From Isoperla grammatica (lineage: Eukaryota; Arthropoda; Insecta; Plecoptera; Perlodidae): a DNA stretch of 64,000 nucleotides. The notes below the pieces were generated by a model. That model saw only the letters and a list, made by a program, of their open reading frames with translations, made no database searches and had not been told where the DNA came from. Location of the stretch: positions 38,429,598 through 38,493,597 of the forward strand of contig OX246739.1 in the NCBI GenBank assembly GCA_945910005.1. The letters are read 5' to 3'. Shown here piece by piece: positions 1 to 57,590 of the stretch; the stretch's first letter is position 1, and each line of letters opens with the position of its first letter. Made by a program: the position numbers and the translations under genes.

Positions 1-1190
1 GAATACTAATTTCAATGCGATCCGATAAACGTAGTAGGTACAAACTACATTTGTATTGCTGAATTCTAGTGAAGTAACTATAACGAAAAATCCAAGCTAT
101 GATATGTGGACAATCAATCTTTATTTGAACAATGGGAGAAAGTATAATAACTATAACAATAACAACTCTAATCTTTGCACATTTTTGTTTTGGTTGTCGT
201 TGATTGTTGTTTTTTTTTTGTACAAATAAGAACATTCTTATATTGATGATGATAGTGTTTTCAGTATAATGGCGCTGGAGCAACAATTGCGACACTTTCA
301 TATTTATCTCTTACATTGAACAATAACAATAGCTTTGAGAACTATTTGCAAGGAAGTTCGTGTAGATGAACGCGTTCGCTTATCAACGCGTGACATAGAG
401 CGTTTTCCTAGTAAACATCAACGAGTATTTCTGCTTGATGTAATATCATAGGTGGCGGTTATTTGTCACTTTAGAACAAAACATATACCCGAACCCTTCA
501 AGATGAAGGATGTGAAACCAGCATCAGAGGAAGGCGACGGAGACGGGCACGTGACCAGCGCACATCCCACGTCGTAAGTAGTGTTGTGTATGTATGCCCA
601 AATACCTTTATGCCCTAGGTCCCTAGTGTTCAGGTGTTCAGTTGTTAGCCAGATAAACGTACCATGCATTTTTGTGGCGACAAAATAAGAATTTACTTCA
701 AAACCTTCTGTTACAAAGACGATCATTTATAGACGTATATAACACATGTTCCACACACCATTGGAGCCTGTTCAAGGGTGCACGATGGTGGAGGATAATA
801 GAAATTAGCGTGGAAGAAACTTAGAATAGGGTTGAATTTAATAGATTGTTTATCAAATATCTTTAGAAATATTCCTACGTTTTGCATTGATATATTTGAT
901 ATTATTACATCAGTCATCACTCATTACATTTTATAGATAACTTTTAAAATGTGACTGGCATTGATACAGATAACAAATTGTAGTATAACATTGGTTATCT
1001 CTGGTAGTGGGATAGTTGTATATGTGAAGCTAGTCCGCGGCCCCTCAGAACTTTTCTCTTGTGAAAGCACAAACGTACCAGCTACCACAACTCACAATAC
1101 CGGCTGTAGGAAACAACACCTCTTGGAAAACCCTTTCCAAAGCTATAGTTGATATATCTATTGACACGGTACAGCGGCATAACTATCTCA
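1..1190. other. AT-rich non-coding stretch
   Basis: No gene, RNA or repeat array is recognised. One copy of a dispersed core (cttatcaacgcgtgaca, then gcgttttcctagt) lies at 378-412. Confidence 0.4.
376..412 (+). repeat. Dispersed repeat core, family D (three copies in window)
   Basis: The core ttatcaacgcgt, a short variable stretch, then gttttcctagt recurs at 3523-3556 (+) and 35682-35720 (reverse complement: actaggaaaacgc and acgcgttgataa). Flanking similarity fades quickly, so the full element boundaries are unknown. Confidence 0.6.
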
Positions 1191-1198
1191 GAATCACA

Positions 1199-2080
1199 CA
1201 GGGGCGGATACAGGGGGGGGGGGGGGGGGGGGAGCGACCGCCCCCCCATGACCAAAAAAAAATGGAAATTTTGAATAATTTTTATTTTGGAGTCGTTACC
1301 GAACTTTAATTGCCATGCTTTGTGTAACTAATCGAGCCTGTATCCGCCCCTGCCGACGTATGCGCATGTCATACTCAGGTTCTCTATCAAATCGCTACTA
1401 TGTGTGAAGTTAAGTAATTTTCGAATGACAGCCCTTTAAACTTACGTGATTATCTCAAAATCTGTAGTATGTCACGCAGGTATGTTTATATTTGATCAAA
1501 CAAGATCTAATTGAGATTAATTGGCAGGAATCAAATTAAATAAATATAATCTGCTTGTCTTACAAATCGCTATACTGTGTGTGACATTAGGTAATTTTCC
1601 ACTGACAGCCCGTTAAACTTCTGTAATTATCTCAAAATCTGTGGTTATGTCACGCACGTTTGTTTGTATACTCTTAAAGTAGATGTAAATGAGATTAATC
1701 AAAAGGAATTAAATTAAATTAATATTCTCAGGTTCACTTACAAATCGATACTTAGAGTGAAATTACGAAATTTCAGAATGACACCCCTGAAACTACCGTA
1801 ATTTTCTCAAAATCAAAAACAATATGACGTGTGTTGTTCGTTTATACGTCAACATTAGTGACAACTATGTTATTGCTTTACCCAAAATGTGACAATGTCA
1901 GTATTGACTGAAGTAAAGTATATTTTGAAAATGTGATTGATTAAACATAATGTACATTACTCCCCAAAACTTGTATATATGAACTTAACCCCCCCCCCCC
2001 CCCCCCTATAATAATTGTCTATCGCCTTCCATGAAACCGCCCCCCCCCCCCCACATAAATCAACGCTAGATCCACCCCTG
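1199..2080. mobile_element. Non-autonomous hAT-like element with 8-bp TSD
   Basis: Starts CAGGGGCGGATACAGG at 1199 and ends CTAGATCCACCCCTG at 2080. It is flanked by perfect GAATCACA duplications at 1191-1198 and 2081-2088. An 8-bp TSD with CA..TG ends is typical of hAT transposons. Inside are G- and C-homopolymer runs (1215-1232, 1989-2006, about 2040) and three imperfect 175-180-bp tandem units. A second, perfect inverted end lies at 1337-1352. No transposase ORF. Confidence 0.88.
1371..1850. repeat. Three degenerate tandem units of about 175-180 bp inside the hAT-like element
   Basis: Units begin near 1371, 1549 and 1723. Each carries caaatcg, a gtgtgaagttaag-like word, aatgacagccc and attatctcaaaatctg, then a word such as tatgtcacgc. 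Identity falls from unit to unit, so this is an old expansion. Confidence 0.75.
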
Positions 2081-2307
2081 GAATCACATCCCTGGGAAAC
2101 GAAATGAATGGAGTGCAAAATGCCAAAGATTGGCTCAGCACATGACCAAATGATTTTTCTCGTTACTATAGATATTAATAGGTCATGGGCTCAGCACAAG
2201 ATATTTCTGAGGGCTGACTGAATCATCCTAGTACTTCCAATACACCTTTCGTTGTAATGTGTACTTTAATACTTTATTCAGTGACTGTTGGCCGGACCGC
2301 TCCCAAA

Positions 2308-3413
2308 CAGTGGCGTGCCGTCCATGGAAGCAATGGAAGCATTGCTTCCATTTTATTTTTAACTAAATTACCTATGTATACCCTCAATGCTGGCTAACAA
2401 TATCGCTTACCAGTAACACTAAAATAGAATTAATGAACCAAACTTAACTACCCGAATTATGCGAAATAACTGACAGCGCAATGAAAAATCCTTGTACCAT
2501 ATTCTACGAGTTTGAATTCGAGCGCCAGGCCTTCGCTGTGGGCCAAGCGACGAGGGTGGCCGAGGGTTGACGAAGAAAAGCCGAGTGGAAGCAATGCCTC
2601 GGATTGCATCCACCCAGCAGTCCAGCACCCATAAGCCAAACTGTTCCGAGAGACACGTGGGTTTGAAAGTTGTTCGTGTTTTTTACCTCTTTATAACCGT
2701 AAAACTGTTTCGTTTATTTTCTAAATTCATTCAGTGTGAGAAAGAATGCGATTCTACATTGATTAGTTGATTATTTGAGTATAATTGTAGTGTGTGACAA
2801 ATGTTTGGTGTGTTGTTCATCTACGCGCGAATAAGCAATATGAAGGATTGCTTCCGAGTCTGCGGGCTCGATCGGATCGCTTGCTGTGGGCCAAGGATCT
2901 AGGTCTAGCGCGGATGTGGAGGATCTAGGTCTAGCGCGAATGTGCACTCCCTTCTGAATTTGTACTATCAACTTTCAATAACCATGAATATGATTGAATG
3001 TTATGTAATCGATGAATTATTTGCGCGCCCATTTAGCACTCGATCTTTTCAAGAAAAATGTGCAATTATTGAGAGTGGCCGACCAACATCAGCTCTGCCA
3101 AATCTCAATTCAAAAACCAAAAAATGCACTCGGCATTTTAGCACTGATATTTTATAATGGATCAGATTTTTGTTCGTAAATTTCTAATGGTAAATTGCCT
3201 AAAACTCGTTAAAAGGCTCGTACGGCAATCACGATAATCCAAAAAAATCCGGGGCTATGCGCCCCGTACCCGCATTGACTGGGGGGCCTTCCCCCCAGAC
3301 CCCCCATGCATGTATTAGGTGGGGGGGGGGGGGGGTCTCACAAGTGCCATTGCCAAGGGATTACTTAAAAAAGTAGTTGCTTCCCCCATTAGAAAAGTCA
3401 CGGCACGCCACTG
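2308..3413. mobile_element. Non-autonomous hAT-like element with 8-bp TSD
   Basis: Ends CAGTGGCGTGCCGT at 2308 and ACGGCACGCCACTG ending at 3413. It is flanked by perfect CTCCCAAA duplications at 2300-2307 and 3414-3421. At 1106 bp it has no transposase frame. It contains a GC-rich block near 3251-3306 (gggctatgcgcccc, ggccttccccccagaccccc) and a poly-G run at 3320-3334. Its TIR is related to, but distinct from, that of the neighbouring element at 1199. Confidence 0.9.
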
Positions 3414-3421
3414 CTCCCAAA

Positions 3422-5200
3422 TCATTGTTCTTCCTACACCTCCCTCACACGGAGCTTCCGATCGAGTTGAACTTTGGAATATTCACACGATTCGGTGTGT
3501 TTATAGGTATTGCACGTGCTCTCTTATCAACGCGTCACACAAAACGTTTTCCTAGTTTATAATCTTAGTAGAAATTGTTTTGAAGTGGAAGTAAACACGT
3601 TAAAATGACGATTCAAGCTCGTCACAAAAAAACGAGTATTATGCCTGGTAGTAAAAAATGGTAAATACCTGTCTGGCGTTTCGCCACTCAGATTATTTAT
3701 TTTATAAACACAACAGAATTCCACAATTCCACAAAGTGTGTTTTGATAAAACAAACAAAAACGAAGACAACAAAACATCCAACAAATATCACATCATGTA
3801 GTACATAAAAAAACAAACAATGATGGTCGCATATACATGCCCCATATGTCACTGCATTAAAATGGCCTTTTTAAAAGTACGTATAGAGTCATTAAAAATA
3901 TCAAGGCAAGTAGTACCTCGAATCAAGTGGGAGGGGATACGGAAAACAGGAAAAATCTTGAACATATTGAGGGGGTGTATTCGGTGAACACCATTTGAAA
4001 ACGTAAAACCGGGATAATAGTAGAAGACTTCCGGTTTTGACTAACGGGGCTGCACGACACCGTAGACGTGAAGAAACAGCAAACCCAGATTGTCTTGTAC
4101 AGTTGTGAAATTTGCTTAAACCAGACTTCATAAAATAACTAATCAAAAGTAAATATGAAGTATTTAGTGTAACAAAATATGTTGTATAGTCATAAGATAA
4201 ACAAAATCCGGAAAATAAGGAGATTTTTCGAACATAGTTAAAAGTACGGGGGATGCCCCGGGGGATGCCCCCCCCTTTTTGCGTCACCATCTTGTTGGCC
4301 TACTTCTTCAACTGAAGTGCGTTAATTCATATCCACTTCAATAGAACAAGGAAATCATATCGTGCTGCACCATGATATGATAACCTTTGGCGTCCATTTT
4401 TACAAAACGGCAATTAGCAGCCAGTGATTATGCAAGATACTTATATGTATCAAGATCATAGGTCTGGTCTGGTAACTTTCCACAAATAAGATTCCGTTCA
4501 AATTTGTCTACAAAATAATTAAGCGTTGACTAACAAATGACTACATGGCACTAAAATGATAGTACAAGAGGGTTTGGCGACACGTGACACAAAACTGAAA
4601 GGCGCATTTTGATCTCAATTTATTGATAATACTTGTAAAACCTCTATTTATTTTAGTACTTTAGAAGAATATCATACAAAATCTAATAACATTGGGGCCA
4701 AGGTCTACTTGATTTACTTGCTGCGGCATCACGACGCTTCGAACTTTGGAAATAGGTCTTGGCCAAAGTGCTTTGTTTATATTTTTTATTTTGCATATAC
4801 ATACATTATATTGACGGTTTATGAAAAGTGGCAAATTGTATGTAAGGCAATGGTGAAGGCAGTTTTTCTCTTGGGGGGGTGGTCACAAACATATTATGTC
4901 TTTATAGAGAGATGATCATACTGATTCATTTCTTTTGGGGGGGTGCCATAGTCCCGCATCCAACCCCCCCCCCCATTTTATTATTACCACTTTCTAAAGA
5001 CTATCTGCAAGTAGTCAATAGGAAACGAAATTGCACCTTCGCATTCAATTTGGGCTCAGTCCGCACCAGTGTAACTGCTGTAACAAGTAGACCCAGTTAC
5101 CCAGTTATAACCCTGCTTGTTCCGTATCACCGGAAAATGGCAAAACTCACAGGGCACAGTTTTAACTGATGAAAGGAACTGATACTAGTTTTGTGGGCAG
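3422..5200. other. Gene-poor stretch upstream of the first visible transporter exon
   Basis: AT-rich with no convincing exon. C- and G-runs at 4250-4276, 4873-4880, 4937-4944 and 4964-4974 resemble the GC blocks of the hAT-like elements, so a degraded element is likely at about 3900-4290; its ends were not found. A dispersed repeat core lies at 3523-3556. The missing N-terminal transporter exon could be here but no motif marks it. Confidence 0.4.
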
Positions 5201-5351
5201 GTATCTAGAGACGTTGACCCATCTGCTCAAGGGTAACATAGGATCAGGCATGATGGCTATGGGAGACGCATACAAGAAGTGTGGCCTAGTGCTTGCGCCA
5301 ATATTGACGCTTGTCCTAGGAGTGATCTGCGTACACGCACAGCATCTCTTG
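5201..5351 (+). CDS. Transporter exon a: TM1-TM2
   Basis: Encodes YLETLTHLLKGNIGSG followed by MMAMGDAYKKCGLV and a second hydrophobic stretch ending VCVHAQ-type residues (VICVHAQHLL). Acceptor is gggcag at 5195-5200 (exon starts with one base completing a codon); donor is TTG|gtgagt at 5352. An in-frame ATG at 5169 would extend the frame by 11 codons (MKGTDTSFVGR), so an alternative first exon starting there is possible, but the family usually has a longer N-terminal tail ending just before the YLETL-like motif, so the acceptor reading is preferred. Confidence 0.92.
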
Positions 5352-8300
5352 GTGAGTTATGTATTCATTGACAATTTTTTGGTTTGGGAGTTTACTACTG
5401 GCTGGATTTCAATCCAATTTCGTTCACATTCGCCAGCAACATTTTCTTTTTAATTTTGTCTAGTTGTGAGTCCAATGTCCAGGCTAATTCATTAATAACT
5501 CCTAAGATTGGTGATATCATAATCCTGTATCAAAGGAAGTGATTTACCTATAGCATTCCTTCAAAAGTTTATCCCAGTTTAATTTTATAACAATGCATTT
5601 TAATCAACAGTGATATGTTTTACGTTTATTTACTTTTTAACTTCATTGGTGTGTTATATTGACTAGATCGCCTCGCAATGAGAGCTCAAAGTGCATAGAT
5701 AACATCCACACATGCATAGAAAGTGCGTTTATGCTCGTTGCTTGTTGTGTGATGCCCCCTAAATCTACTGGCGGAAGTTTGCTAATTCAGGGGACCTTGA
5801 GAAATTATGTTGGTCATATATACAGAAGTATCAGCATACCTGCAATAACTTACAACTACACAAATAATGGATATAGATCAAACAAAACGGTGTAGGCCTA
5901 ATATGCTTAAAGGCCTATTTTCACATACAAGTAAGTATTTTTTGTTTTCAAATAGACATTAAAAAAATAAGAAAACCGCAGTTTATGGCAACTTTGGACG
6001 AGGCCTACTCCCCCTACAATGATTTGTTTTGACGCGCGCCTCGGGGCATGTGACGTTGTTGGATGCGGGCCGAGCGGCTGGGCGAGGCGCAACTCGGGTA
6101 GGAACACCCGTTGCGTGGTGCAGTAAGGGGTTGACACTTGACAGTCTGTATGGATGGTTGTTTCTCAGAATTGCTTCAAGAAATGTACAATGAATAGTTT
6201 TATTAATAACTAATGTGAGTGCTAATATCCAGCAGTTTATTAAGAGAGTGCACGGACAAGTGGATTGTGTAGAGTACGTCTTTAGGTTCTAGTTGATTTA
6301 TTTGTAGTTGTAGTTTCATTATGCTTGTCGTAGAGGCATAAAGCATAACGGACATTATAAGTGTCAAAGCTTTTATGTTATTATTGTGAATGGTCATTTA
6401 GACTATAGTGTACTTATCGCACCAGCTATATTAATCAGTAATCATTGTATTAAATTGTTGTGCGTACGGATGCAATAACAGTCTTGTAAGCCCGATCGAC
6501 ATGTCGTTTCACCGTTTTCCAAACAGGGACAAATCTCCAGTGCCTTTGGATTTTTAGCCAGTGCAACATAAAAACTGGCTATCGAAAATTAATAGTAAGA
6601 ACTCTGTAGGCCTACCAAGCAAATACACTCGTGTATGTTCCGAACATTTCATTAAAGACGACTATGAAATTACCAACAGTTTGAAAATGGAAAATGAATG
6701 TTATGAAAAAAAAATCGAAACGTGTGTTAAAAAAATGAGCATAACGTCTGTCAAATTGAGAGGCAGCATTGATACCCCTTTTAAAACAGAGCGCAGTGCA
6801 TGTTACCTTGCCGCTCGAAACAAGCATAGTCTCATTGAAAACATTCGAACCCAAAGTGCCCAAAGTACATCTACACATCACGCTGTACTACGCTACGATT
6901 AATGTTTATGTAATTACGTCTCACTAAATCCCGAAACATTTCAGAATAAACCTAAAGAGATAGAAATAAAGTTTGAGCTTGATATTGAAACACTAATAAG
7001 AGCCAACCAGTTTGCGGAGGGGATGTCGTTTTGTGCAAGTTCGGAAAGTGAAACCAATGAAATAAACGACCACGACGAATCGTTTGAAACAGAAGATTTT
7101 GACGAATGTGAATCTGTCAATGATAGTGATCACACCGATGACAATCAATTCAATACGATGACAATACAAGTTCCTCCAAGCCAAACACGGCATCTCGAAC
7201 ATACACCCTTCAACTGTCCGATAGAGGTGGGGGCGGTGGGGCGCGCCACGGATGGCCAGCAGCGAAGATGAGTGAGCGCGGCACAGCTCGCATCCAACTA
7301 CGTCACGCGTGTGACGTCACCCAATGAACATTCTTGAATAAAATTGCTCATAACTTGTTTAAATACGGACCGATTTCTTTCATTTTTGTTCCTAAATTGT
7401 TTAAATAATTCAAGGTCTGACATAGTTTAACTACAACGCTAGATGACAATATGCCTTTAAAAATTCTACTATGGTAAATGTGGACTAAACGAAAACCCGT
7501 TTATTATTTCAGGTGAACGCATCCAAAGAAATGGGAGTGAGAATGAAATCATCGAAGTCACCAAACTTCGCCGATACAGTGGAACTGACATTCACAACTG
7601 GACCTCCAAAAATACAAAAATACGCCTGGTTCTTCAGGTAACGAAGGGTTTTCTTTAGCCAGACATAAGAAACACTAACAACATATAGTTACCAGTTTCC
7701 GGTAATACAAGTTCTTCCAACCTAGCTCATGTCATAGACTCAGAAACTACTTCTATTTGGCTCAAAAACAAATTTAATGTGTCAATTAACGTAACTGATA
7801 ACTTAAAAATTGTCTCAGTATGTGAGGATATTAAATCAGTTGAACATGGTTCACCCATTTGGCCATTTGACAATCGATGAATGTGTAAATTTCAACAAAT
7901 GGCAACAGTTATTCTAAAATGTCTTGCTCGTTTTATAAATCTATGCCAAGGTCACAAGATTTATGGGACCTTGATCGTATTTAGTAAAAAAAAATGCACA
8001 TGTGAGTGGTGACCGCCATCGTTCAGACGTGTTGTATGTGCGTGTGCCTAAGCTAGTGGCACTGTACAGGGTGTCAGAAACAACATGATGGCTGGAGAAA
8101 AGGGATTCTCCTGAGTGGCGTAATCAAAGGTGGTTTAGTTAGATTATTAACCACTATGTATACTTTACAGGGGGCTCGTGAACGTCAGCCTCTGCATCAC
8201 ACAGATGGGCTTCTGTTCTGTATACGTGGTCTTCGTAGCAGAAAGCCTGCGACAGGTAAGACCCTGAATAGACACCTGTTATAGCCATGTAACGGTGTGT

Positions 8301-11300
8301 GTGTTTCTCACAGTGGATAGTCTACATCGTTTGGGGGCTCGTGAACATCAGCCTCTGCATCACACAGATGGGCTTCTGTTCTGTATACGTGGTCTTCGTA
8401 GCAGAAAGCCTGCGACAGGTAAGACACAGAATAGACACCTGTTACAGCTATGTAACGGTGTGTTTCTCACAGTGGATAGTCTACATCGTTTGGGGGCTCG
8501 TGAACATCAGCCTCTGCATCACACAGATGGGCTTCTGTTCTGTATACGTGGTCTTCGTAGCAGAAAGCCTGCGACAGGTAAGACCCTGAATAGACACCTG
8601 TTATAGCCATGTAACGGTGTGTTTCTCACAGTGGATAGTCTACACCGTTTGGGGGCTCGTGAACATCAGCCTCTGCATCACACAGATGGGCTTCTGTTCT
8701 GTATACGTGGTCTTCGTAGCAGAAAGCCTGCGACAGGTAAGACACAGAATAGACACCTGTTACAGCTATGTAACGGTGTGTTTCTCACAGTGGATAGTCT
8801 ACACCGTTTGGGGGCTCGTGAACATCAGCCTCTGCATCACACAGATGGGCTTCTGTTCTGTATACGTGGTCTTCGTAGCAGAAAGCCTGCGACAGGTAAG
8901 ACCCTGAATAGACACCCGTTATAGCCATGTACCGGTGTGTTTCTCACAGTGGATAGTCTACATCGTTTGGAGGCTCGTGAACATCAGCCTCTGCATCACA
9001 CAGATGGGCTTCTGTTCTGTATACGTGGTCTTCTTAGCAGAAAGCCTGCGACAGGTAAAACACAGAATAGACACCTGTTACAGCTATGTACCGGTGTGTT
9101 TCTCACAGTGGATAGTCTACACCGTTTGGGGGCTCGTGAACATCAGCCTCTGCATCACACAGATGGGCTTCTGTTCTGTATACGTGGTCTTCGTAGCAGA
9201 AAGCCTGCGACAGGTAAAGTAAAACACAGAATAGACACCTGTTATAGCTATGTAACGGTGTGTTTCTCACAGTGGATAGTCTACATCGTTTGGGGGCTCG
9301 TGAACATCAGCCTCTGCATCACACAGATGGGCTTCTGTTCTGTATACGTGGTCTTCGTAGCAGAAAGCCTGCGACAGGTAAGACACAGAATAGACACCTG
9401 TTACAGCTATGTAACGGTGTGTTTCTCACAGTGGATAGTCTACATCGTTTGGGGGCTCGTGAACATCAGCCTCTGCATCACACAGATGGGCTTCTGTTCT
9501 GTATACGTGGTCTTCGTAGCAGAAAGCCTGCGACAGGTAAGACCCTGAATAGACACCTGTCATAGCCATGTAACGGTGTGTTTCTCACAGTGGATAGTCT
9601 ACACCGTTTGGGGGCTCGTGAACATCAGCCTCTGCATCACACAGATGGGCTTCTGTTCTGTATACGTGGTCTTCTTAGCAGAAAGCCTGCGACAGGTAAA
9701 ACACAGAATAGACACCTGTTACAGCTATGTACCGGTGTGTTTCTCACAGTGGATAGTCTACACCTTTTTCATGCGCCCTTTTTCAGCGGAAATTAAATGA
9801 TGTTCGTCATACTACATGCAGTAGGTATAGGTAGTTCTTCCTTTCTTTCACATAGAAGTATGATCCACCTCTGAAGTCAAACTATCCCCACTACTTCTTG
9901 GGCTTAAAACAGATTGTGGGAACTCGAGCAGTATACAATTTGGTATTTTGTACTCGGCTCTGTCGGCATCGGTGATGTTAGGTCATTTATATCGATTTGA
10001 ACCAAAGATCCAGTAGTGAATGAAGCAACCCCGAAAATGTTACTGTATTAGCGTGTTACTACCGATCGAACAGTACGTGTTACTGTAATATACTGTTTGA
10101 AATTTAGGTGATAAGCAGTAATTCAAATTGTCAATATTCTGGTACAAAATTTACCAATTCCTTCAAAATGTCATATTTCGACTATGCTGTGCAATACAAT
10201 CGAGGTTGTTCTGTCTCTAGTTTCTGGATCACTACGACATCCACTACTCCGTGACGTTCTACATGGTAATCATCATCGTCCCCATCACCTTCACCTGTTG
10301 GATCCGAGACCTCAAGTTCCTGGTTCCCCTGTCGCTCATCGCCAATGTTCTGATGGCGTTCGGCATCTTCACGACTCTCTACCTGATGAGCTACGATCTG
10401 TCATCCGTCGACGTCTCGGGCCGAGACTATGTCGCCTCCTACAAGACGATACCTCTGTTTCTGGGCACGGCCATCTACGCCTTCGAGGGCATCAGTCTGG
10501 TAACTTCTCTCAGTTTTACGTTTGGAAATAAAGCCCCACGTAATGAAAGTATCCCACCTTCCAGAAGATGACATGATAAGAATTGGAAAAACTCATGATC
10601 TAGATTTACTTTCCTGGCATAACAAGTAACTAAATGGGTAATTTATTTTGTTTTATACTTTATTTCATTAAGGTTAGCACAGAGATACTCCGCCAGAACA
10701 CAACTCATGGTTTTCTGCTACAACATGTCCACTCTCGTGCACATTTCTCTTTCTAACAAGACGTGTGTTTGCTTAAGGTATTGCCACTACAGCAACAGAT
10801 GAAGAAGAGAAAGCACTTCGCAATGCCACTAGGGGTGCTGAACGTAGGCATGAGTATTGTCACACTTCTCCTCATTGCCATGGGTTCAATCGGGTACCTC
10901 AAGTACGGAGACGATGTGAAAGGAAGTCTCACTCTCAATCTACCGCAAGACAACATGTAAGTTTTTTCGCTTTATGCTGCAACATCAGCTGGGAAGAGAA
11001 AAAGAATTTCTGCAAACAATTCACTATATACTGAAATATTGAACGAGATAGTAATAGATGAAAAATAATGAAAGTTAATGAAAATGTCAAAGGATCATAG
11101 GATGATTCGACAGTTGGGACTGGGAAGGTTAGTTAAACGTGGGATTCTGATCTCTGTTCAATGTTTACTTGGCACTAATTTTATACTTGCTCGCAATGCT
11201 AGGTAATTTATTTGGCTAACTGTTAGGTAAGTCTGTAAACTTTCATTGGAATATGAGTATTATCATAGCAAACAAATTCTGTACCGATTAGTCCAGAACC

Positions 11301-14300
11301 AAAGGGTTCGTTTATTTGACTACTTAAATGCAGGGGATGCAACAGCTCGCGATGTAAAGCATGTCTGTTGTTTCAGACTGGCTCAGGTCGTGCAGATAAC
11401 AATCGCCTGCGGAGTGTTGTTCACCTACGCCCTTCAGATGCACGTGCCTGTGATCATTGTGTGGCCGGCCGTAAGGAGTAGATGGGGCCCGTTCAAGCAC
11501 CCCGTCCTCATGGAGACAGGCGTGCGCACAGCCCTCGTCATGTCCACGTGTGAGTAGTATCCTATCCTTCAGATGCACGTGCCTGTGATCATTGTGTGGC
11601 CGGCCGCTAGGAGTAGATGGGGCCCGTTCAAGCACCCCGTCCTCATGGAGACAGGCGTGCGCACAGCCCTCGTCATGTCCACGTGTGAGTAGTATCCTAT
11701 CCTTCAGATGCACGTGCCTGTGATCATTGTGTGGCCGGCCGCTAGGAGTAGATGGGGCCCGTTCAAGCACCCCGTCCTCATGGAGACAGGCGTGCGCACA
11801 GCCCTCGTCATGTCCACGTGTGAGTAGTATCCTATCCTTCAGATGCACGTGCCCGTGATCATTGTGTGGCCGGCCGTAAGGAGTAGATGGGGCCCGTTCA
11901 AGCACCCCGTCCTCATGGAGACAGGCGTGCGCACAGCCCTCGTCATGTCCACGTGTGAGTAGTATCCTATCCTTCAGATGCACGTGCCTGTGATCATTGT
12001 GTGGCCGGCCGCTAGGAGTAGATGGGGCCCGTTCAAGCACCCCGTCCTCATGGAGACAGGCGTGCGCACAGCCCTCGTCATGTCCACGTGTGAGTAGTAT
12101 CCTATCCTTCAGATGCACGTGCCTGTGATCATTGTGTGGCCGGCCGTAAGGAGTAGATGGGGCCCGTTCAAGCACCCCGTCCTCATGGAGACAGGCGTGC
12201 GCACAGTCCTCGTCATGTCCACGTGTGAGTAGTATCCTATCCTTCAGATGCACGTGCCTGTGATCATTGTGTGGCCGGCCGTAAGGAGTAGATGGGGCCC
12301 GTTCAAGCACCCCGTCCTCATGGAGACAGGCGTGCGCACAGCCCTCGTCATGTCCACGTGTGAGTAGTATCCTATCCTTCAGATGCACGTGCCTGTGATC
12401 ATTGTGTGGCCGGCCGTAAGGAGTAGATGGGGCCCGTTCAAGCACCCCGTCCTCATGGAGACAGGCGTGCGCACAGCCCTCGTCATGTCCACGTGTGAGT
12501 AGTATCCTATCCTTCAGATGCACGTGCCTGTGATCATTGTGTGGCCGGCCGTAAGGAGTAGATGGGGCCCGTTCAAGCACCCCGTCCTCATGGAGACAGG
12601 CGTGCGCACAGCCCTCGTCATGTCCACGTGTGAGTAGTATCCTATCCTTCAGATGCACGTGCCTGTGATCATTGTGTGGCCGGCCGCTAGGAGTAGATGG
12701 GGCCCGTTCAAGCACCCCGTCCTCATGGAGACAGGCGTGCGCACAGCCCTCGTCATGTCCACGTGTGAGTAGTATCCTATCCTTCAGATGCACGTGCCTG
12801 TGATCATTGTGTGGCCGGCCGTAAGGAATAGATGGGGCCCGTTCAAGCACCCCGTCCTCATGGAGACAGGCGTGCGCACAGCCCTCGTCATGTCCACGTG
12901 TGAGTAGTATCCTATCCTTTAGATGCACGTGCCTGTGATCATTGTGTGGCCGGCCGCTAGGAGTAGATGGGGCCCGTTCAAGCACCCCGTCCTCATGGAG
13001 ACAGGCGTGCGCACAGCCCTCGTCATGTCCACGTGTGAGTAGTATCCTATCCTTCAGATGCACGTGCCTGTGATCATTGTGTGGCCGGCCGTAAGGAGTA
13101 GATGGGGCCCGTTCAAGCACCCCGTCCTCATGGAGACAGGCGTGCGCACAGCCCTCGTCATGTCCACGTGTGAGTAGTATCCTATCCTTCAGATGCACGT
13201 GCCTGTGATCATTGTGTGGCCGGCCGTAAGGAGTAGATGGGGCCCGTTCAAGCACCCCGTCCTCATGGAGACAGGCGTGCGCACAGCCCTCGTCATGTCC
13301 ACGTGTGAGTAGTATCCTATCCTTCAGATGCACGTGCCTGTGATCATTGTGTGGCCGGCCGTAAGGAGTAGATGGGGCCCGTTCAAGCACCCCGTCCTCA
13401 CGGAGACAGGCGTGCGCACAGCCCTCGTCATGTCCACGTGTGAGTAGTATCCTATCCTTCAGATGCACGTGCCCGTGATCATTGTGTGGCCGGCCGCTAG
13501 GAGTAGATGGGGCCCGTTCAAGCACCCCGTCCTCATGGAGACAGGCGTGCGCACAGCCCTCGTCATGTCCACGTGTGAGTAGTATCCTATCCTTCAGATG
13601 CACGTGCCTGTGATCATTGTGTGGCCGGCCGTAAGGAGTAGATGGGGCCCGTTCAAGCACCCCGTCCTCACGGAGACAGGCGTGCGCACAGCCCTCGTCA
13701 TGTCCACGTGTGAGTAGTATCCTATCCTTCAGATGCACGTGCCTGTGATCATTGTGTGGCCGGCCGTAAGGAGTAGATGGGGCCCGTTCAAGCACCCCGT
13801 CCTCACGGAGACAGGCGTGCGCACAGCCCTCGTCATGTCCACGTGTGAGTAGTATCCTATCCTTCAGATGCACGTGCCTGTGATCATTGTGTGGCCGGCC
13901 GTAAGGAGTAGATGGGGCCCGTTCAAGCACCCCGTCCTCATGGAGACAGGCGTGCGCACAGCCCTCGTCATGTCCACGTGTGAGTAGTATCCTATCCTTC
14001 AGATGCACGTGCCTGTGATCATTGTGTGGCCGGCCGTAAGGAGTAGATGGGGCCCGTTCAAGCACCCCGTCCTCATGGAGACAGGCGTGCGCACAGCCCT
14101 CGTCATGTCCACGTGTGAGTAGTATCCTATCCTTCAGATGCACGTGCCTGTGATCATTGTGTAGCCGGCCGCTAGGAGTAGATGGGGCCCGTTCAAGCAC
14201 CCCGTCCTCATGGAGACAGGCGTGCGCACAGCCCTCGTCATGTCCACGTGTGAGTAGTATCCTATCCTTCAGATGCACGTGCCTGTGATCATTGTGTGGC

Positions 14301-17300
14301 CGGCCGTAAGGAGTAGATGGGGCCCGTTCAAGCACCCCGTCCTCATGGAGACAGGCGTGCGCACAGCCCTCGTCATGTCCACGTGTGAGTAGTATCCTAT
14401 CCTTTAGATGCACGTGCCTGTGATCATTGTGTGGCCGGCCGCTAGGAGTAGATGGGGCCCGTTCAAGCACCCCGTCCTCATGGAGACAGGCGTGCGCACA
14501 GCCCTCGTCATGTCCACGTGTGAGTAGTATCCTATCCTTCAGATGCACGTGCCCGTGATCATTGTGTGGCCGGCCGCTAGGAGTAGATGGGGCCCGTTCA
14601 AGCACCCCGTCCTCATGGAGACAGGCGTGCGCACAGCCCTCGTCATGTCCACGTGTGAGTAGTATCCTATCCTTCAGATGCACGTGCCCGTGATCATTGT
14701 GTGGCCGGCCGCTAGGAGTAGATGGGGCCCGTTCAAGCACCCCGTCCTCATGGAGACAGGCGTGCGCACAGCCCTCGTCATGTCCACGTGTGAGTAGTAT
14801 CCTATCCTTCAGATGCACGTGCCTGTGATCATTGTGTGGCCGGCCGCTAGGAGTAGATGGGGCCCGTTCAAGCACCCCGTCCTCATGGAGACAGGCGTGC
14901 GCACAGCCCTCGTCATGTCCATGTGTGAGTAGTATCCTATCCTTCAGATGCACGTGCCTGTGATCATTGTGTGGCCGGCCGTAAGGAGTAGATGGGGCCC
15001 GTTCAAGCACCCCGTCCTCATGGAGACAGGCGTGCGCACAGCCCTCGTCATGTCCACGTGTGAGTAGTATCCTATCCTTCAGATGCACGTGCCCGTGATC
15101 ATTGTGTGGCCGGCCGCTAGGAGTAGATGGGGCCCGTTCAAGCACCCCGTCCTCATGGAGACAGGCGTGCGCACAGCCCTCGTCATGTCCACGTGTGAGT
15201 AGTATCCTATCCTTCAGATGCACGTGCCTGTGATCATTGTGTGGCCGGCCGCTAGGAGTAGATGGGGCCCGTTCAAGCACCCCGTCCTCATGGAGACAGG
15301 CGTGCGCACAGCCCTCGTCATGTCCATGTGTGAGTAGTATCCTATCCTTCAGATGCACGTGCCCGTGATCATTGTGTGGCCGGCCGTAAGGAGTAGATGG
15401 GGCCCGTTCAAGCACCCCGTCCTCACGGAGACAGGCGTGCGCACAGCCCTCGTCATGTCCACGTGTGAGTAGTATCCTATCCTTCAGATGCACGTGCCTG
15501 TGATCATTGTGTGGCCGGCCGCTAGGAGTAGATGGGGCCCGTTCAAGCACCCCGTCCTCATGGAGACAGGCGTGCGCACAGCCCTCGTCATGTCCACGTG
15601 TGAGTAGTATCCTATCCTTCAGATGCACGTGCCTGTGATCATTGTGTGGCCGGCCGCTAGGAGTAGATGGGGCCCGTTCAAGCACCCCGTCCTCATGGAG
15701 ACAGGCGTGCGCACAGCCCTCGTCATGTCCACGTGTGAGTAGTATCCTATCCTTCAGATGCACGTGCCTGTGATCATTGTGTGGCCGGCCGTAAGGAGTA
15801 GATGGGGCCCGTTCAAGCACCCCGTCCTCACGGAGACAGGCGTGCGCACAGCCCTCGTCATGTCCACGTGTGAGTAGTATCCTATCCTTCAGATGCACGT
15901 GCCTGTGATCATTGTGTGGCCGGCCGTAAGGAGTAGATGGGGCCCGTTCAAGCACCCCGTCCTCATGGAGACAGGCGTGCGCACAGCCCTCGTCATGTCG
16001 ACGTGTGAGTAGTATCCTATCCTTCAGATGCACGTGCCCGTGATCATTGTGTGGCCGGCCGCTAGGAGTAGATGGGGCCCGTTCAAGCACCCCGTCCTCA
16101 TGGAGACAGGCGTGCGCACAGCCCTCGTCATGTCCACGTGTGAGTAGTATCCTATCCTTCAGATGCACGTGCCCGTGATCATTGTGTGGCCGGCCGTAAG
16201 GAGTAGATGGGGCCCGTTCAAGCACCCCGTCCTCATGGAGACAGGCGTGCGCACAGCCCTCGTCATGTCCACGTGTGAGTAGTATCCTATCCTTCAGATG
16301 CACGTGCCTGTGATCATTGTGTGGCCGGCCGTAAGGAGTAGATGGGGCCCGTTCAAGCACCCCGTCCTCATGGAGACAGGCGTGCGCACAGCCCTCGTCA
16401 TGTCCACGTGTGAGTAGTATCCTATCCTTCAGATGCACGTGCCCGTGATCATTGTGTGGCCGGCCGCTAGGAGTAGATGGAGCCCGTTGAAGCACCCCGT
16501 CCTCATGGAGACAGGCGTGCGCACAGCCCTCGTCATGTCCACGTGTGAGTAGTATCCTATCCTTCAGATGCACGTGCCCGTGATCATTGTGTGGCCGGCC
16601 GCTAGGAGTAGATGGAGCCCGTTGAAGCACCCCGTCCTCATGGAGACAGGCGTGCGCACAGCCCTCGTCATGTCCACGTGTGAGTAGTAGACATCCTATC
16701 CTCCTTTCGAGACTCTTGTCACTTTCAAGATGGCACTTTTTGTATGGATGGAGTCTCCTTATCAGTCAAGATCAAAATGCATAGTCGTTCCTCGCGTGCT
16801 CCTCAACTCAGTGTTTCCTCAGACTCGCCCAACCACCAATAACAGAGAAATTCACATGGTAATGCTGCTCTGTGATTGGAGGTTGCCGATTTGGGCGAGT
16901 AGGAAGGCTGAGTTTAGGAGCACGTGAGAAACGACTATGCATTTGACCCTTATTTGTTGACAGTGTGGGCTGGGAGATAGCATTTCGCCCCCTTTTTCGG
17001 CAGGTTCATCCCTGATGATCATCTCTTGCATCTATTTTTCTCTCTCTCCCTCTCCATCTATTTCTCTCCAGACTGGAAGGGGTTGATTTCATGTAGCCTG
17101 ATATTTCTGCCAATAGTCTGCGCTGCTGTGCTGGTCCCACACCTGGAGTTGGTCATAGCCCTGGTCGGCTCCATCAGCAGTACATACCTGGCCCTGCTGA
17201 TCCCCGCCGTCCTGGAAGTGGTCAGCCAATGGGAGAGCGGGATCTCCAACCTCACGTTAGCCAAGGACGTGTTAATCTTCTCCCTCGGCATCTTCGCGTT

Positions 17301-17367
17301 TTCGACGGGGACTTACTTCAGCCTTGTCGAGATCTTCGCCGCATTGACGAAAAGCGATATTTTATGA
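5201..17367 (+). CDS. SLC36/PAT-like proton-coupled amino acid transporter, 5'-incomplete, seven exons
   Basis: Spliced gene of the amino acid/auxin permease superfamily (Aa_trans). Exons: 5201-5351, 7513-7637, 8171-8255, 10221-10499, 10778-10956, 11377-11549, 17072-17367. Every junction is AG..GT, and the phases run 0, 2, 0, 0, 2, 1 without conflict, giving about 428 residues. Seen family landmarks: HLLKGNIGSG at the start of TM1, GVICVHAQHLL in TM2, GFCSVYVVFVAE in TM3, IRDLK-like IRDLKFLVPLS before TM5, FGTA-like FLGTAIYAFEG in TM6, IGYLKYGDD after TM7, FTYALQMHVPV in TM8 and STGTYFSLVEI near the C-terminus. Family members move small amino acids with protons across plasma or lysosomal membranes using 11 TM helices. 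Roughly the first 40-60 residues, normally a cytosolic tail, are not found; their exon lies upstream or outside. Two exons have tandem arrays in the following intron. The family call is secure; the subfamily (for example pathetic-like) is inference. Confidence 0.95.
6459..6902 (+). pseudogene. Decayed THAP zinc-finger domain inside a transporter intron
   Basis: One frame reads CAYGCNN from 6459, then MSFHRFPNRDK, NWLSKIN, LPSKYTRVCSEHFIKDDYE. This is the THAP C2CH pattern: Cys-X3-Cys, FHRFP, the conserved W, P, and Cys-X2-His. An in-frame TAG at 6555 interrupts it, and the spacing between the Cys pairs (about 54) is slightly over the usual range. After DYE the frame is open to TAA at 6900 but no AVPSIF-type motif follows. 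No start or splice context belonging to a host gene was seen. THAP domains occur in P-element and related transposases as well as in host genes; which source applies here cannot be told. It is probably a broken transposon or retrocopy fragment. Confidence 0.75.
7023..7271 (+). other. Acidic open frame downstream of the THAP remnant
   Basis: Same frame as the THAP remnant after several stops. The frame (SETNEINDHDESFETEDFDE and onward) is rich in Asp, Glu and Ser up to about 7190, and may be a linker from the same decayed gene. It has no recognisable domain. The end, from about 7200, is GC-rich. Low confidence that it was ever coding. Confidence 0.25.
7513..7637 (+). CDS. Transporter exon b: TM2-TM3 loop
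   Basis: Encodes VNASKEMGVRMK...PNFADTVELTF followed by TGPPKIQKYAWFF. This matches the family loop in which a basic, SLC36-like segment precedes a FAETVE-type motif and a GP..(V/I)QKY run. The acceptor is tattatttcag at 7512 and the donor is TTCAG|gtaacg at 7638. The length of 125 bp takes phase 0 to phase 2, which fits only the exon at 8171 and not the TGG-starting copies further down. Confidence 0.93.
8171..8255 (+). CDS. Transporter exon c: canonical TM3 exon (parent of the 159-bp array)
   Basis: An 85-bp exon with acceptor tttacag at 8164-8170 and donor CGACAG|gtaag. The first base completes the Arg codon left by exon b, giving FFRGLVNVSLCITQMGFCS and then VYVVFVAESLRQ, which aligns column by column with family TM3. 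It differs from the downstream copies in two ways: it has VNVS rather than VNIS, and it lacks the WIVYIVW extension, because in the copies the acceptor AG before GGGGCTCG is replaced by gttt. It is therefore the one copy that splices in frame to exon b. Confidence 0.9.
8314..9765 (+). repeat. Exon-derived tandem array: nine 105-bp TM3 exon copies plus a 3' stub
   Basis: Copies start at 8314, 8473, 8632, 8791, 8950, 9109, 9273, 9432 and 9591, with a truncated stub at 9750. The period is 159 bp (164 once). Each copy runs from cacag|TGGATAGTC to CGACAG|gt and encodes 35 residues (WIVYIVWGLVN to AESLRQ) with no stop. Spacers are 54 bp and mainly of two alternating types: type A (gtaagaccctgaat, in-frame TGA) and type B (gtaagacacagaat or gtaaaacacagaat, open in frame). 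This gives a 318-bp dimeric higher-order repeat. Copies at 8950 and 9591 share V-to-L (cttcttagcag) and accgg variants four units apart, showing block duplication. All copies are phase 0 at both ends. Whether any are spliced into mRNA is unknown. Confidence 0.93.
10221..10499 (+). CDS. Transporter exon d: TM4-TM6
   Basis: A 93-codon exon, phase 0 at both ends. Acceptor ctgtctctag at 10211-10220, donor ATCAGTCTG|gtaact. Encodes FLDHYDIHYSVTFYM, a TM4 rich in I/V/P, CWIRDLKFLVPLSLIANV (the conserved arginine before TM5), TM5, a loop, and TM6 FLGTAIYAFEGISLV. These are diagnostic AAAP/SLC36 segments. Codon third positions are G/C-rich compared with the surrounding AT-rich introns. Confidence 0.95.
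10778..10956 (+). CDS. Transporter exon e: cytosolic loop and TM7
   Basis: Encodes VLPLQQQMKKRKHFAMPLGV followed by TM7 and the conserved GYLKYGDDV motif, ending LNLPQDN. The family equivalent is V(L/A)PLENQM..P..F and G(Y)L.YG. Acceptor gtttgcttaag at 10777, donor AACAT|gtaagt at 10957. Phase 0 in, phase 2 out; the split codon becomes ATA (Ile) with the next exon. Confidence 0.94.
11377..11549 (+). CDS. Transporter exon f: TM8 and start of TM9 (first copy of the 135-bp array)
   Basis: Acceptor tgtttcag at 11376; donor TCCACGT|gtgagt at 11550. Encodes LAQVVQITIACGVLFTYALQ (TM8, with the family FTYALQ motif), then MHVPVIIVWPAVRSRWGPF, and ends RTALVMST. Phase 2 in, phase 1 out. The T left over joins AC of exon g to make Tyr (TYWKGLIS). 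The last 119 bp from 11431 are the first unit of the 39-copy array, and this copy is the only one contiguous with the upstream half of the exon. Confidence 0.93.
11431..16690 (+). repeat. 39-copy, exactly 135-bp array of a partial exon with splice sites
   Basis: Units begin with CCTTCAGATGCACGTG at 11431 and every 135 bp to 16561 without a single indel. Each unit holds the last 112 bp of exon f (ATGCACGTG to TCCACGT), its donor gtgagt and intron sequence ending tatccttcag. That ending forms an AG acceptor absent from the parent copy, where the same spot is exon (tacgcccttcag). Variants: GTA/GCT (Val/Ala), cct/ccc, ATG/ACG, TGG to TAG at about 14163, ccttcag to cctttag at 12916 and 14401, and tccATG at the end of units starting 14806 and 15211. 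The last two units share agcccgttgaag. Sense reading through a unit meets an in-frame TAG (TGTGAGTAG). The array fills most of the intron before exon g. Its 135-bp length being 45 codons keeps the antisense strand open. Confidence 0.97.
16775..16944. mobile_element. Foldback MITE-like element in the last transporter intron
   Basis: Arms begin AAATGCATAGTCGTT at 16775 and end AACGACTATGCATTT at 16944. They pair over about 60 bp (for example gtgctcctcaactcag against ctgagtttaggagcac, and actcgcccaa against ttgggcgagt). It separates the end of the 135-bp array from exon g. No coding capacity. A target duplication could not be fixed. Confidence 0.75.
17072..17367 (+). CDS. Transporter exon g: TM9-TM11 and stop
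   Basis: Acceptor tatttctctccag ending at 17071. Encodes YWKGLISCSLIFLPIVCAA (TM9), LVIALVGSISSTYLALLIPA (TM10), a WESGISNLTLAKD loop and TM11 ending STGTYFSLVEIFAALTKSDIL, then TGA at 17365. The G-S-x-S-S-x-x-L-A-x-x-x-P-A motif in TM10 and the T-G-T-Y-x-S-L-V-E-I end are family hallmarks. The C-terminal tail is short, as usual for SLC36 proteins. Confidence 0.95.
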
Positions 17368-22796: not shown

Positions 22797-23270
<474 letters not shown>

Positions 23271-42355: not shown

Positions 42356-42363
42356 CCTTGAGT

Positions 42364-43690
42364 GGAAGTACCCCGCGACATGTTAGCGATACTTACCCTC
42401 CGAGTGCCTTCAGTGCGCGTCCTCCGAGGAAGGGTGGAAGTACCCCACGATATGTTAGCGATACTTACCCTCCGAGTGCCTTGAGTGCGCGTCCTCCGAG
42501 GAAGGGTGGAAGTACCCCACGATATGTTAGCGATACTTACCCTCCTAGTGCCTTGAGTGCGCGTCCTCCGAGGAAGGGTGGAAGTACCCCACGATATGTT
42601 AGCGATACTTACCCTCCGAGTGCCTTGAGTGCGCGTCCTCCGATGAGGAAGGGTGGAAGTACCCCACGATATGTTAGCGATACTTACCCTCCGAGTGCCT
42701 TGAGTGCGCGTCCTCCGAGGAAGGGTGGAAGTACCCCGCGATATGTTAGCGATACTTACCCTCCGAGTGCCTTGAGTGCGCGTCCTCCGAGGAAGGGTGG
42801 AAGTACCCCACGATATGTTAGCGATACTTACCCTCCGAGTGCCTTGAGTGCGCGTCCTCCGAGGAAGGGTGGAAGTACCCCGCGATATGTTAGCGATACT
42901 TACCCTCCGAGTGCCTTGAGTGCGCGTCCTCCGAGGAAGGGTGGAAGTACCTCACGATATGTTAGCGATACTTACCCTCCGAGTGCCTTGAGTGGGCGTC
43001 CTCCGAGGAAGGGTGGAAGTACCCCACGACATGTTAGCGATACTTATCCTCTTAGTGCCTTGAGTGCGCGTCCTCCGAGGAAGGGTGGAAGTACCCCGCG
43101 ATATGTTAGCGATACTTACCCTCCGAGTGCCTTGAGTGCGCGTCCTCCGAGGAAGGGTGGAAGTACCCCACGATATGTTAGCGATACTTACCCTCCGAGT
43201 GCCTTGAGTGCGCGTCCTCCGAGGAAGGGTGGAAGTACCCCACGATATGTTAGCGATACTTACCCTCCGAGTGCCTTGAGTGCGCGTCCTCCGAGGAAGG
43301 GTAGAAGTACCCCGCGATATGTTAGCGATACTACCCTCCGAGTGCCTTGAGTGCGCGTCCTCCGAGGAAGGGTGGAAGTACCTCACGATATGTTAGCGAT
43401 ACTTACCCTCAGAGTGCCTTGAGTGCGCGTCCTCCGAGGAAGGGTGGAAGTACCCCACGGTATATTAGCGATACTTACCCTCCGAGTGCCTTGAGTGCGC
43501 GTCCTCCGAGGAAGGGTGGAAGTACCCCACGATATGTTAGCGATACTTACCCTCCGAGTGCCTTGAGTGCGCGTCCTCCGAGGAAGGGTGGAAGTACCCC
43601 ACGATATGTTAGCGATACTTACCCTCCGAGTGCCTTGAGTGCGCGTCCTCCGAGGAAGGGTGGAAGTACCCCACGATATGTTAGCGATAC
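42364..43690 (+). repeat. 19-copy 72-bp tandem array, open in frame (24-residue unit)
   Basis: ggaagtacccc starts units at 42364, 42436, 42508, 42580, 42655 and then every 72 bp to 43303, then 43374 to 43662. There is one +3 change (cgatgagg, near 42643) and one -1 change (cgatactaccctc, near 43330). The + strand frame repeats GGSTPRYVSDTYPPSALSA and RPPRK. It runs 42358-43350, breaks at the -1 change and continues 43347-43844 in the next frame with the same peptide. Beyond the array it reads TCFDDVSVTSSESHPSRTSP then LKQGLFSSK, followed by gtaact. It may be the repeat region of an exon or a minisatellite that happens to be open; no known family is recognised. Confidence 0.9.
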
Positions 43691-43790
43691 TTACCCTCCC
43701 ACATGTTTCGACGACGTGTCAGTCACATCCAGTGAGTCACATCCATCACGTACGTCACCCCTGAAACAGGGCCTGTTCTCCAGCAAGGTA
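43691..43790 (+). other. Possible coding tail of the 72-bp array ending at a donor
   Basis: Continues the array frame with serine/threonine-rich, non-repeat sequence up to CAGCAAG|gtaact at about 43788. It resembles an exon end, but there is no homology and the next exon is not seen. Confidence 0.25.
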
Positions 43791-43827
43791 ACTTCTGTTT
43801 TTGGTAAAGGAGGAACCTTGGTGGGCC

Positions 43828-54996: not shown

Positions 54997-57590
54997 AGTG
55001 TAGATAAAGTACCTCCATATTATCGAGGTACGTGTCGAGCCGAGTGCCAAGGGACAAGTGAAGTGGTGATCCCGGTCGGTTTACGACATCATTATTAGAG
55101 CGTTCTCTTAGGAAAGCTCTGGCCTGCTCGCCTCGCGTGAATACAACACAAAGTGGACGCTGGCTAATTAGCTGGTTACTGATTACATCAGTTGTGTTGA
55201 TTTAGTCATGTAGATGTGTGTTTAATTTATTACTAATGATTTGTGATCATAACATTTTAAATGACTCTCGTAGTATCTGAAGCACGCTACAGTATAGGCA
55301 CCTTGTTTAGCCATTGAGGGCGCTAGTGAAAACGATGAAGCGTTCAAGTGATAATGTCACGCAATTTTCCGATGAAGCAGCGTCGTTCTTCCTACGTCGA
55401 TAATGGCAAATTGTGAAAATTGTTTAATTAAATACGGCTTTTAAAAATTTTGGGCAGATTATGAATCCCATCAGCAGTCCATCTTAAAAGGCAAGGCGCC
55501 ATTTAAATCAGGACATGTTTTAGACTTGCAAACAACAAACAACACAAAACGAACATAAACAAAACCAGACAATAAAAAAAAAACACAAAACTACAAAACA
55601 AAATCACACATAACAACAAGGAAAAACAAACAAACAAAAAACAAGACATTTCACAATAATATCCGACACTATTTTCAACCGCGGAATGAAATCTTATCTT
55701 CGCCAATAAGTTGCTAAATTTGGCCAATATAATACCTGCCACAAGTTGTAGAAGTGCTACTTTATCGACTCTTCTTCTACACCCACTGCTCATAGGCATA
55801 GGACCTGCGCAAACGTGTGTTTTTAGCAAGGAAATTGCTCGCGTTTCGGCACTGTGTGGATTCTTATATTTTACTGTCTCATAGAAACAACACGCCATCC
55901 ATATGTTCGTAACTTATACCCATATATTTGCAAAGAACAGACGTATGCGACAAAACTATATTTTTTGAATTATATCAACAATTTCTAGAATGTTTCAAAT
56001 TCCCCAATGGGGTGCCGACGCCCCCATTACTGCAGCATGTTTGAGCCGTTTCATTTGACTTGAATAGTATTTATTCTTCTTGAAGAGGTGTCATATTTTT
56101 GAATTAAATGCCAATTACATGTTTATTCTTATTTTGAATAAGTGGTACATACATAATGTATTTATATCTCAATTAATGTTTGTAAATGGCCGATGTTGAA
56201 GCCGTGTGGTAATTGTGGAACTAAATCCATTGTTGCCCCAAAGGTTGAGCGAACAGTAGTGCCAAGCGGAGCAGCTTTTTGCGCGCGCCACTCTTTCCTG
56301 TTAGCAATAATTGGCCCATTACGCCTGACACGCAGTTCTTGTCGTCTGGATCCTTAGCATGCATAATACTGTATAAAAATCACTTTGAATTTTGATTGGC
56401 TTCTAGCCCGGAGGCTGCGCACTTAACACCTTAATTACCGGAGTGACACTTACGAGTTACGTCACCGCACTCGAAACTCTCAGCGCCGATGATTGTCTTA
56501 CTGGCGACACCGACACACAATATATATCTCGCGTGTTGTTTGCATTCTTCAAGCAACCACGTTCATATCTCTGCATTGTGATTTAGCACTCGTCATGTTT
56601 TCTAGCCCACTGTAAGGTATACAAAGTGCCTCCTTACAAATGCAAACAACAACAATTTGCATTTGTATCACAGTAACGTAATGCCGAGAAGGTATACAGG
56701 GGAGTATACAGATGTTCACCAGGGTTGGGGTGAGGGGGGGGGGGAACCTCCAGTCGGCAGAAACCCTTATATTGTTTTACTAGTGTCGTTTTGAACGCCT
56801 ATAAACAGCAAACACGTAGGTTACAATTATTTACAAATGAAATATACGTAATCATAGAATGGTACCATTGACATGGTTCACGTAACGTCAACACCATCCT
56901 TGACCAAAATAAATGTCAATACTCAATATGGTAAGAATCTTTATTCTTTCTCTTCATTTCTTTCTTTGTTTCTTTCTTCCTCCCCACCTTTCTTTTCCCT
57001 CTTTCTTTTGTAAGACTAGTAGGTGGGGGAGGGATAGGGGGAGACTTGTAGAAAGCCTTCCGTCCGATACACTACTGAGAGTAAGAACTTATACTCTTGT
57101 AGTCGTGTGGAAAAGAGAAAAACGTAACATTTGAGAAATGCTGTTGTTTTTATCATAATCATCAACTATGTCAATGAAAATATAGGGAGCTAAGATATAT
57201 AGTAAGGTTGTTATGGCTTTAGAGGAGTAGAGGAAGCTACAGCATAAAGTTGTTTTTGTTCAGTTTAGTTTGGGGGAAATCAGACAAGTCACCTGCCAGG
57301 TTTTCCAAATAAATAATTAATTTAATTTACGTATATTTATTGTTGAATCACTCAGCTACAAATCTAAATATTGAAACCGTCGAATATGATAGATATATTA
57401 AATCAATAAATGCATTATGAAAATGTTATGATTTATTCAAAATTGAGGACATTTTGATCTGTGCGCAAGGGGCTCAACTGAAACCGATCAGTGGGCCCCA
57501 GGGCCGGATGTAAGCGACATGGACGGCGAAGTGGAGGTGATTAAGATGTGTTTGTTTGTGTCTCCTTCGCGCCCGCTCCCTCACACTGCT
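54997..57590. other. Intergenic, no gene seen
   Basis: AT-rich with a pyrimidine-rich stretch (56940-57010) and a poly-G run at 56737-56746. The 131-codon minus frame at 55503-55898 is mostly low-complexity Phe/Leu/Val/Cys from aaacaaaac-type sequence and is rejected. Confidence 0.4.

Follow-up and report, generated by a model that had tools for sequence, protein, structure and literature searches.

Tandem arrays spanning exon-intron boundaries in an SLC36/PAT-type transporter gene of Isoperla grammatica

A transporter gene and its two boundary-spanning arrays

We analyzed a stretch of 64,000 nucleotides from the plecopteran Isoperla grammatica (GenBank assembly GCA_945910005.1, contig OX246739.1, positions 38,429,598 to 38,493,597; the whole stretch is termed the window below, and all coordinates refer to it). 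Its plus strand carries a gene for an SLC36/PAT-type transporter with two tandem arrays, the units of each lying across an exon-intron boundary of the gene itself, at exon 7/intron 7 in array 1 and at exon 4/intron 4 in array 2.

The gene (503..17367) was modeled with eight exons: exon 1 (503-573), exon 2 (5201-5351), exon 3 (7513-7637), the 85-nt exon 4 (8171..8255), which is the parent of array 2, exon 5 (10221-10499), exon 6 (10778-10956), the 173-nt exon 7 (11377..11549), whose last 119 bp form the exon part of the first unit of array 1, and exon 8 (17117..17367). The frame is open across all eight, and the predicted protein shows a full-length match to the SLC36/PAT family (Pfam Aa_trans, PF01490; E value of 1.5e-62; profile positions 1-408 of 410), as well as to the solved structure of proton-coupled amino acid transporter 1 (9v3t; E value of 5.7e-69). 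The view of the initial annotation, which had been made from the letters of the sequence, that the parent of array 1 is a transporter exon is thus borne out. Homologue comparisons throughout refer to the best 120 of 857 matches, for which only the 7993 candidates that had the most words in common with the query were scored; among these 120, the best named matches are insect PATs, headed by Schistocerca at 54%. In a 30-row protein tree, built from the query and 29 hand-picked members of the 120, the transporter falls among 13 rows that group with good support (96/98) and include the polyneopteran rows; inside this group it joins the orthopteran rows with weak support (88/57) and on a long branch (1.08). 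Judged by this one protein, the host is probably a polyneopteran insect from an order outside those sampled. The gene is apparently insect, rather than cephalochordate, in its homology. Intron 2 harbors an open reading frame (6558-6899, plus strand) with a THAP-like domain (PF05485; E value of 0.00025; 22.2 bits against a cutoff of 23.9), which is perhaps the remnant of a transposon.

The acceptor of exon 8, which had initially been placed at 17072, was moved to 17117 (tttctgccaatag followed by TCTGCG) on the basis of homologue lengths and alignment scores, reducing the protein from 452 to 437 residues. The segment across the joint of exons 7 and 8 measures 54 to 56 residues in 118 of the 120 relatives, with one of 64 and one of 96, versus 70 in the model that uses 17072; the approximately 15 residues added by the latter are missing from nearly all of these relatives. 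Acceptor 17117 keeps the frame and improves the alignment score against 119 of the 120, with a mean gain of 11.4 bits. Acceptor 17072 is therefore probably wrong, and it may serve a minor form of the transcript.

Array 1 (11431..16689, plus strand) combines the terminal part of exon 7 with the beginning of intron 7, as delimited by Tandem Repeats Finder, a unit register, and counts of splice motifs. Tandem Repeats Finder returned a period of 135 bp, 39.0 copies, 98% matches, and 0% indels, and in a register starting at 11438, each of the 39 units measures 135 bp; the number, period, and freedom from indels that had first been noted are thus upheld, with the array ending at 16689. Unit 1 is the genuine end of exon 7 and is identical to the array consensus, and units 38 and 39 have two private changes in common. 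The last unit (16568..16689), beyond which the native intron continues with GTGAGTAGTAGACATCC, has its other departures only where that intron resumes. The unit had been described as 112 bp of exon and 23 bp of intron; it is more precisely the last 119 bp of exon 7, beginning at CCTTCAG, together with 16 bp of intron.

The first unit joint (11550..11572) extends for 23 bp from the donor GTGAGT to a new acceptor-like end in CCTTCAG and fuses the intron's TATCCT to the exon's CCTTCAG across a short CCT match. It reads GTGAGTAGTATCCTATCCTTCAG followed by ATG, compared with CGCCCTTCAG followed by ATG in the native exon and GTGAGTAGTAGACATCCTATCCTCC in the native intron, of which GACA is missing from the array units. 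The donor is kept in all 39 units, and an AG is found at every one of the 38 unit junctions (36 CAG and 2 TAG). The proposal that the joint creates an acceptor holds as far as the presence of the AG is concerned, but the AG is itself exon sequence, and the intron supplies only the pyrimidine stretch that precedes it. An antisense open frame of 1813 aa (11324-16765, minus strand) spans the whole of array 1; because 135 is a multiple of three, a frame free of stops stays open throughout the array, and this frame is not evidence of a gene.

Array 2 (8170..9762, plus strand) comprises 10 units of approximately 159 bp, nine of them extra copies, and covers all of exon 4 and about 74 bp of intron 4. 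The successive unit spacings are 163, 159, 159, 159, 159, 159, 164, 159, and 159 bp. Each extra unit contains exon 4, its donor, and the acceptor tttctcacag, which would define a possible exon of 105 nt with its start 20 bases 5' of the exon 4 sequence. Nine such exons, separated by spacers of 54 nt (59 nt in one case), are predicted from the sequence between 8314 and 9695.

Variation among the copies and predicted effects on splicing

Across units 1-38 of array 1, 11 of the 112 positions of the exon part vary, as does 1 of the 23 positions of the intron part, which holds the donor and the new acceptor (P = 0.69); in this one array, the latter part thus shows no greater conservation than the remainder. 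The distinct changes in the exon part are seven missense, one nonsense, and two synonymous, if the linked change at 35/36 is counted once. The copies therefore look unconstrained, with the proviso that the numbers are small; a conserved function, which we also considered, finds no support in the counts of variable sites and missense changes. Variants at different sites have been mixed: those at positions 12 and 35/36 occur in all four combinations (in 18, 11, 7, and 3 units), as do those at 12 and 74 (in 25, 9, 4, and 1). The likeness of two units is also scarcely related to the distance between them (rho of 0.081 and P of 0.056 for 39 units; rho of -0.006 and P of 0.53 with the last two removed). 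Together, the combinations of variants and the distance-independent likeness suggest that exchange runs both across array 1 and within its units. As the parent exon is part of the same pool, conversion could reach the working exon 7 and carry into it a variant such as the V-to-A change seen in 18 of the 39 units.

Two intron haplotypes alternate among the units of array 2, and unit 7 is a mixture. A single base (GTC versus ATC) separates the parent exon from every one of its nine copies, whereas the parent in array 1 matches its consensus. The intron part of array 2 is more variable than the exon part in an alignment judged by eye. Selection on the copies was considered as the cause of this gap and set aside because the alternating haplotypes make two founder alleles a better explanation.

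Tandem arrays are often misassembled, and it could be argued that a short, real duplication was inflated during assembly. One of the amphioxus repeats discussed below is indeed reported to have been aberrantly assembled in a draft genome (PMC3087553). However, simple looping of an assembly would give repeated blocks, whereas the units of array 1 fall into 14 different types that follow one another irregularly, no run longer than two units is repeated, and the last two units carry private variants. We accordingly hold an artifact of this kind to be very improbable.

The consequences of splicing into array 1 can be read off its sequence. When one extra 112-nt copy is included after exon 7, the predicted stop lies 12 codons beyond that exon for 18 of the 38 units and 14 codons beyond it for the other 20, in agreement with the earlier estimate of about 15 codons; three copies give the same stop positions as one. 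Use of any of the 38 later donors would lead to a stop after 2 codons, and replacement of exon 7 by a unit exon would do so after 5. Since these stops fall inside the array itself, the correction of exon 8 leaves them unchanged. Early termination upon inclusion, the hallmark of a poison exon, is thus predicted for all 38 units. Splice sites and branch points were scored with crude consensus tables, with exon 8 taken at acceptor 17072. The array had been said to present 38 perfect donors, and GTGAGT is in fact identical to the native donor in 39 of 39 units; the native donor, however, has a low score of 2.7 against the consensus.

These predictions bear on the proposal that array 1 is a field of poison exons and decoy donors, some transcripts using its sites and being removed by nonsense-mediated decay, so that output drops as the copy number rises. 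In its favor are the early stops, which extend to every single-copy insertion and every later donor, the identity of the donors to the native one, and an acceptor score equal to that of exon 7 itself. Countering it, the part of the unit holding the donor and acceptor has no extra conservation, and an adjacent donor and acceptor are separated by 23 nt. Sites so close are too near each other for joint use, such that only nonadjacent units could still be paired. Moreover, splicing of the amphioxus arrays is reported to be undisturbed (PMC3087553, PMC3902484). We regard such regulation by array 1 as improbable.

Array 2 lends itself to a different form of use, in which one or more of the 105-nt exons would be spliced in as in-frame cassettes, yielding transporter forms with repeated, mostly hydrophobic segments of 35 residues. 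All nine exons are predicted to be in frame, and including one to nine of them leaves the normal stop intact; six of the nine donors score as high as that of the parent, and seven of the nine have a UAAC core 18-22 nt before the acceptor. Against this, an in-frame length would arise by chance in roughly one in four cases by our own estimate, and the repetition of a membrane segment would probably disturb the fold of the transporter. Further, the exon 4/5 segment has the same length, free of any insert, in 116 of the 120 listed relatives, three of the others being two residues longer and one being four shorter. Cassette use of array 2 is thus, in our view, highly doubtful.

Known boundary repeats and the origin of the arrays

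Tandem repeats over an exon-intron boundary have been named mirages in amphioxus, where they were described in Adh3 and later in the globin genes BflGb6 and BflGb9 (PMC3087553). The globin mirages are reported to have units of 150-160 and 157 bp, with six and three units in two BflGb6 haplotypes; they show instability of length, and reverse transcription-PCR results suggest that splicing is undisturbed (PMC3087553). PGBD5 and troponin C are given as further cases, and in lancelet PGBD5, where repeats of 60 and 108 bp lie over splice sites, splicing was judged to be accurate (PMC3902484). In human segmental duplications, boundary repeats are reported to be able to yield new introns (PMC2812944), and duplications of exon 4 have been described in an earthworm metallothionein (PMC12783039).

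The arrays of the transporter gene share with the amphioxus mirages, as these are described, their intragenic position across a boundary of the host gene, units of comparable length in the globins, splice signals repeated in many units, shuffled units, and a divergent unit at the edge (PMC3087553). They differ from them in an apparently insect host, in their 39 and 10 units versus the 6 and 3 of BflGb6, in the presence of two arrays in one gene, and in the complete in-frame exon modules of array 2 (PMC3087553). A further difference is that normal splicing and length instability are observations made on the amphioxus mirages, whereas the present arrays are known from the sequence of a single assembly. 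The repeats of lancelet PGBD5 likewise cover splice sites but are described as imperfect, with the 108-bp repeat in three copies (PMC3902484). Human internal tandem repeats are similarly located at exon-intron boundaries; these average four units of 30 bp, however, and many are stated to have transcript support (PMC2812944). The earthworm duplications differ in being accompanied by inversions and, in the account given, are not described as a regular boundary minisatellite (PMC12783039). By their anatomy, we judge the present arrays to be of the mirage kind, with array 1 being unusually large. Keyword searches of the open-access literature, which prove little, brought no insect precedent for a boundary array to our notice among the titles and opening lines of abstracts that were listed.

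On this basis, we consider it likely that both arrays are tolerated mirage-type minisatellites that arose by duplication across a boundary and are bypassed through use of the first donor. What argues for this is the combination of indel-free units with 98% matches, a joint at a short sequence match, a conserved, open gene frame, and, in array 1, unconstrained copies, mixed variants, and unit likeness independent of distance. To these are added the second array over a boundary of this gene and the published amphioxus arrays, with their similar units and reportedly normal splicing. The 135-bp stretch that straddles the exon 7/intron 7 boundary would have been tandemly duplicated at the short CCT match, and array 1 would then have been enlarged and shuffled through unequal crossing-over or gene conversion. 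With the extra copies situated within the intron and the first donor remaining in use, the array could persist. Array 2 may have been born by the same route, with exon 4 as its source. The explanation that remains for the skipping of the copies is positional: no donor but the first would form an exon of the normal length of 173 nt together with the acceptor of exon 7. Both arrays are most likely tolerated rather than used.

Several observations weigh against this interpretation. The normal splicing of the host gene that it presupposes is itself predicted from the sequence, and the amphioxus precedent is phylogenetically distant from insects. The variants at positions 74 and 35/36 of array 1 occur in three combinations only (18, 16, and 5 units). 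The crude tables give the array 1 acceptor the same 3.4 as the acceptor of exon 7, and they place the best branch point of the array (2.16) above those of exon 7 (1.06) and of exon 8 at 17072 (1.58). The skipping of the copies is not accounted for by these values; weak splice or branch-point scores as the reason were rejected because those of native exons 7 and 8 are no higher. The sites of array 2, too, look usable.

The two arrays might also act together as a splicing dial, with the number of poison exons in array 1 setting the loss of transcript and array 2 contributing in-frame exons with introns of 54 nt, which would make this a gene in the midst of gaining exons and introns. We regard concerted action of this kind as very unlikely.

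The coincidence of the arrays can be quantified post hoc, the chance that at least two span a donor being about 0.001 for four founders placed randomly and 0.009 for two founders placed within the gene. The exons have a G+C content of 0.43-0.60 versus 0.41 for the window, and a higher exon G+C content may favor arrays by itself.

Other repeats in the window and implications

A 72-bp-period array on the minus strand (42362..43699), delineated by Tandem Repeats Finder and an exon scan, contains 17 exact copies of GGTAAGTATCGC, repeats a strong donor motif, and begins at the donor with which a candidate exon (43695-43794, minus strand) ends; this was the sole candidate exon that passed the thresholds in a scan of 36-50 kb on that strand. 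The donor cutoff of 5.5 used in that scan favors the 72-bp array and would pass over most genuine exons, six of the seven native transporter donors scoring lower. This is a possible third boundary case, although its candidate exon is without homology support. No other fragments of transporter exons were listed in the window, with matches starting inside the two arrays or less than 200 bp from an exon's own place excluded, apart from a 25-bp, 88% match to the start of exon 4 and its upstream flank at 56604-56628 (E value of 0.003), which we take as chance. RNA families and tRNAs were not found in the window at the thresholds used.

A 60-bp array of 13 copies (58074-58850) is open in several frames; it adjoins an inverted repeat recognized by eye at about 57598 and 57977 and is immediately followed by 2.5 copies of a 31-bp repeat beginning with GGAACGCGTTCC (58865-58942). 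The Pfam HNOB profile scores 29.7 bits on the whole open reading frame of the 60-bp array, against a cutoff of 25.5, but no single stretch passes, and the repeats themselves probably produce the match. An AGAT microsatellite of about 31 copies is located at 22935-23059.

If splicing reliably ignores the 38 donor copies of array 1, the gene would provide a natural test of first-donor choice in which the number of copies serves as the dose. Array 2, for its part, resembles raw material for the gain of introns through boundary duplication, in keeping with the model proposed for mirages (PMC3087553). Finally, with a mirage-type array present in what is apparently an insect, the process would no longer be one specific to lancelets.

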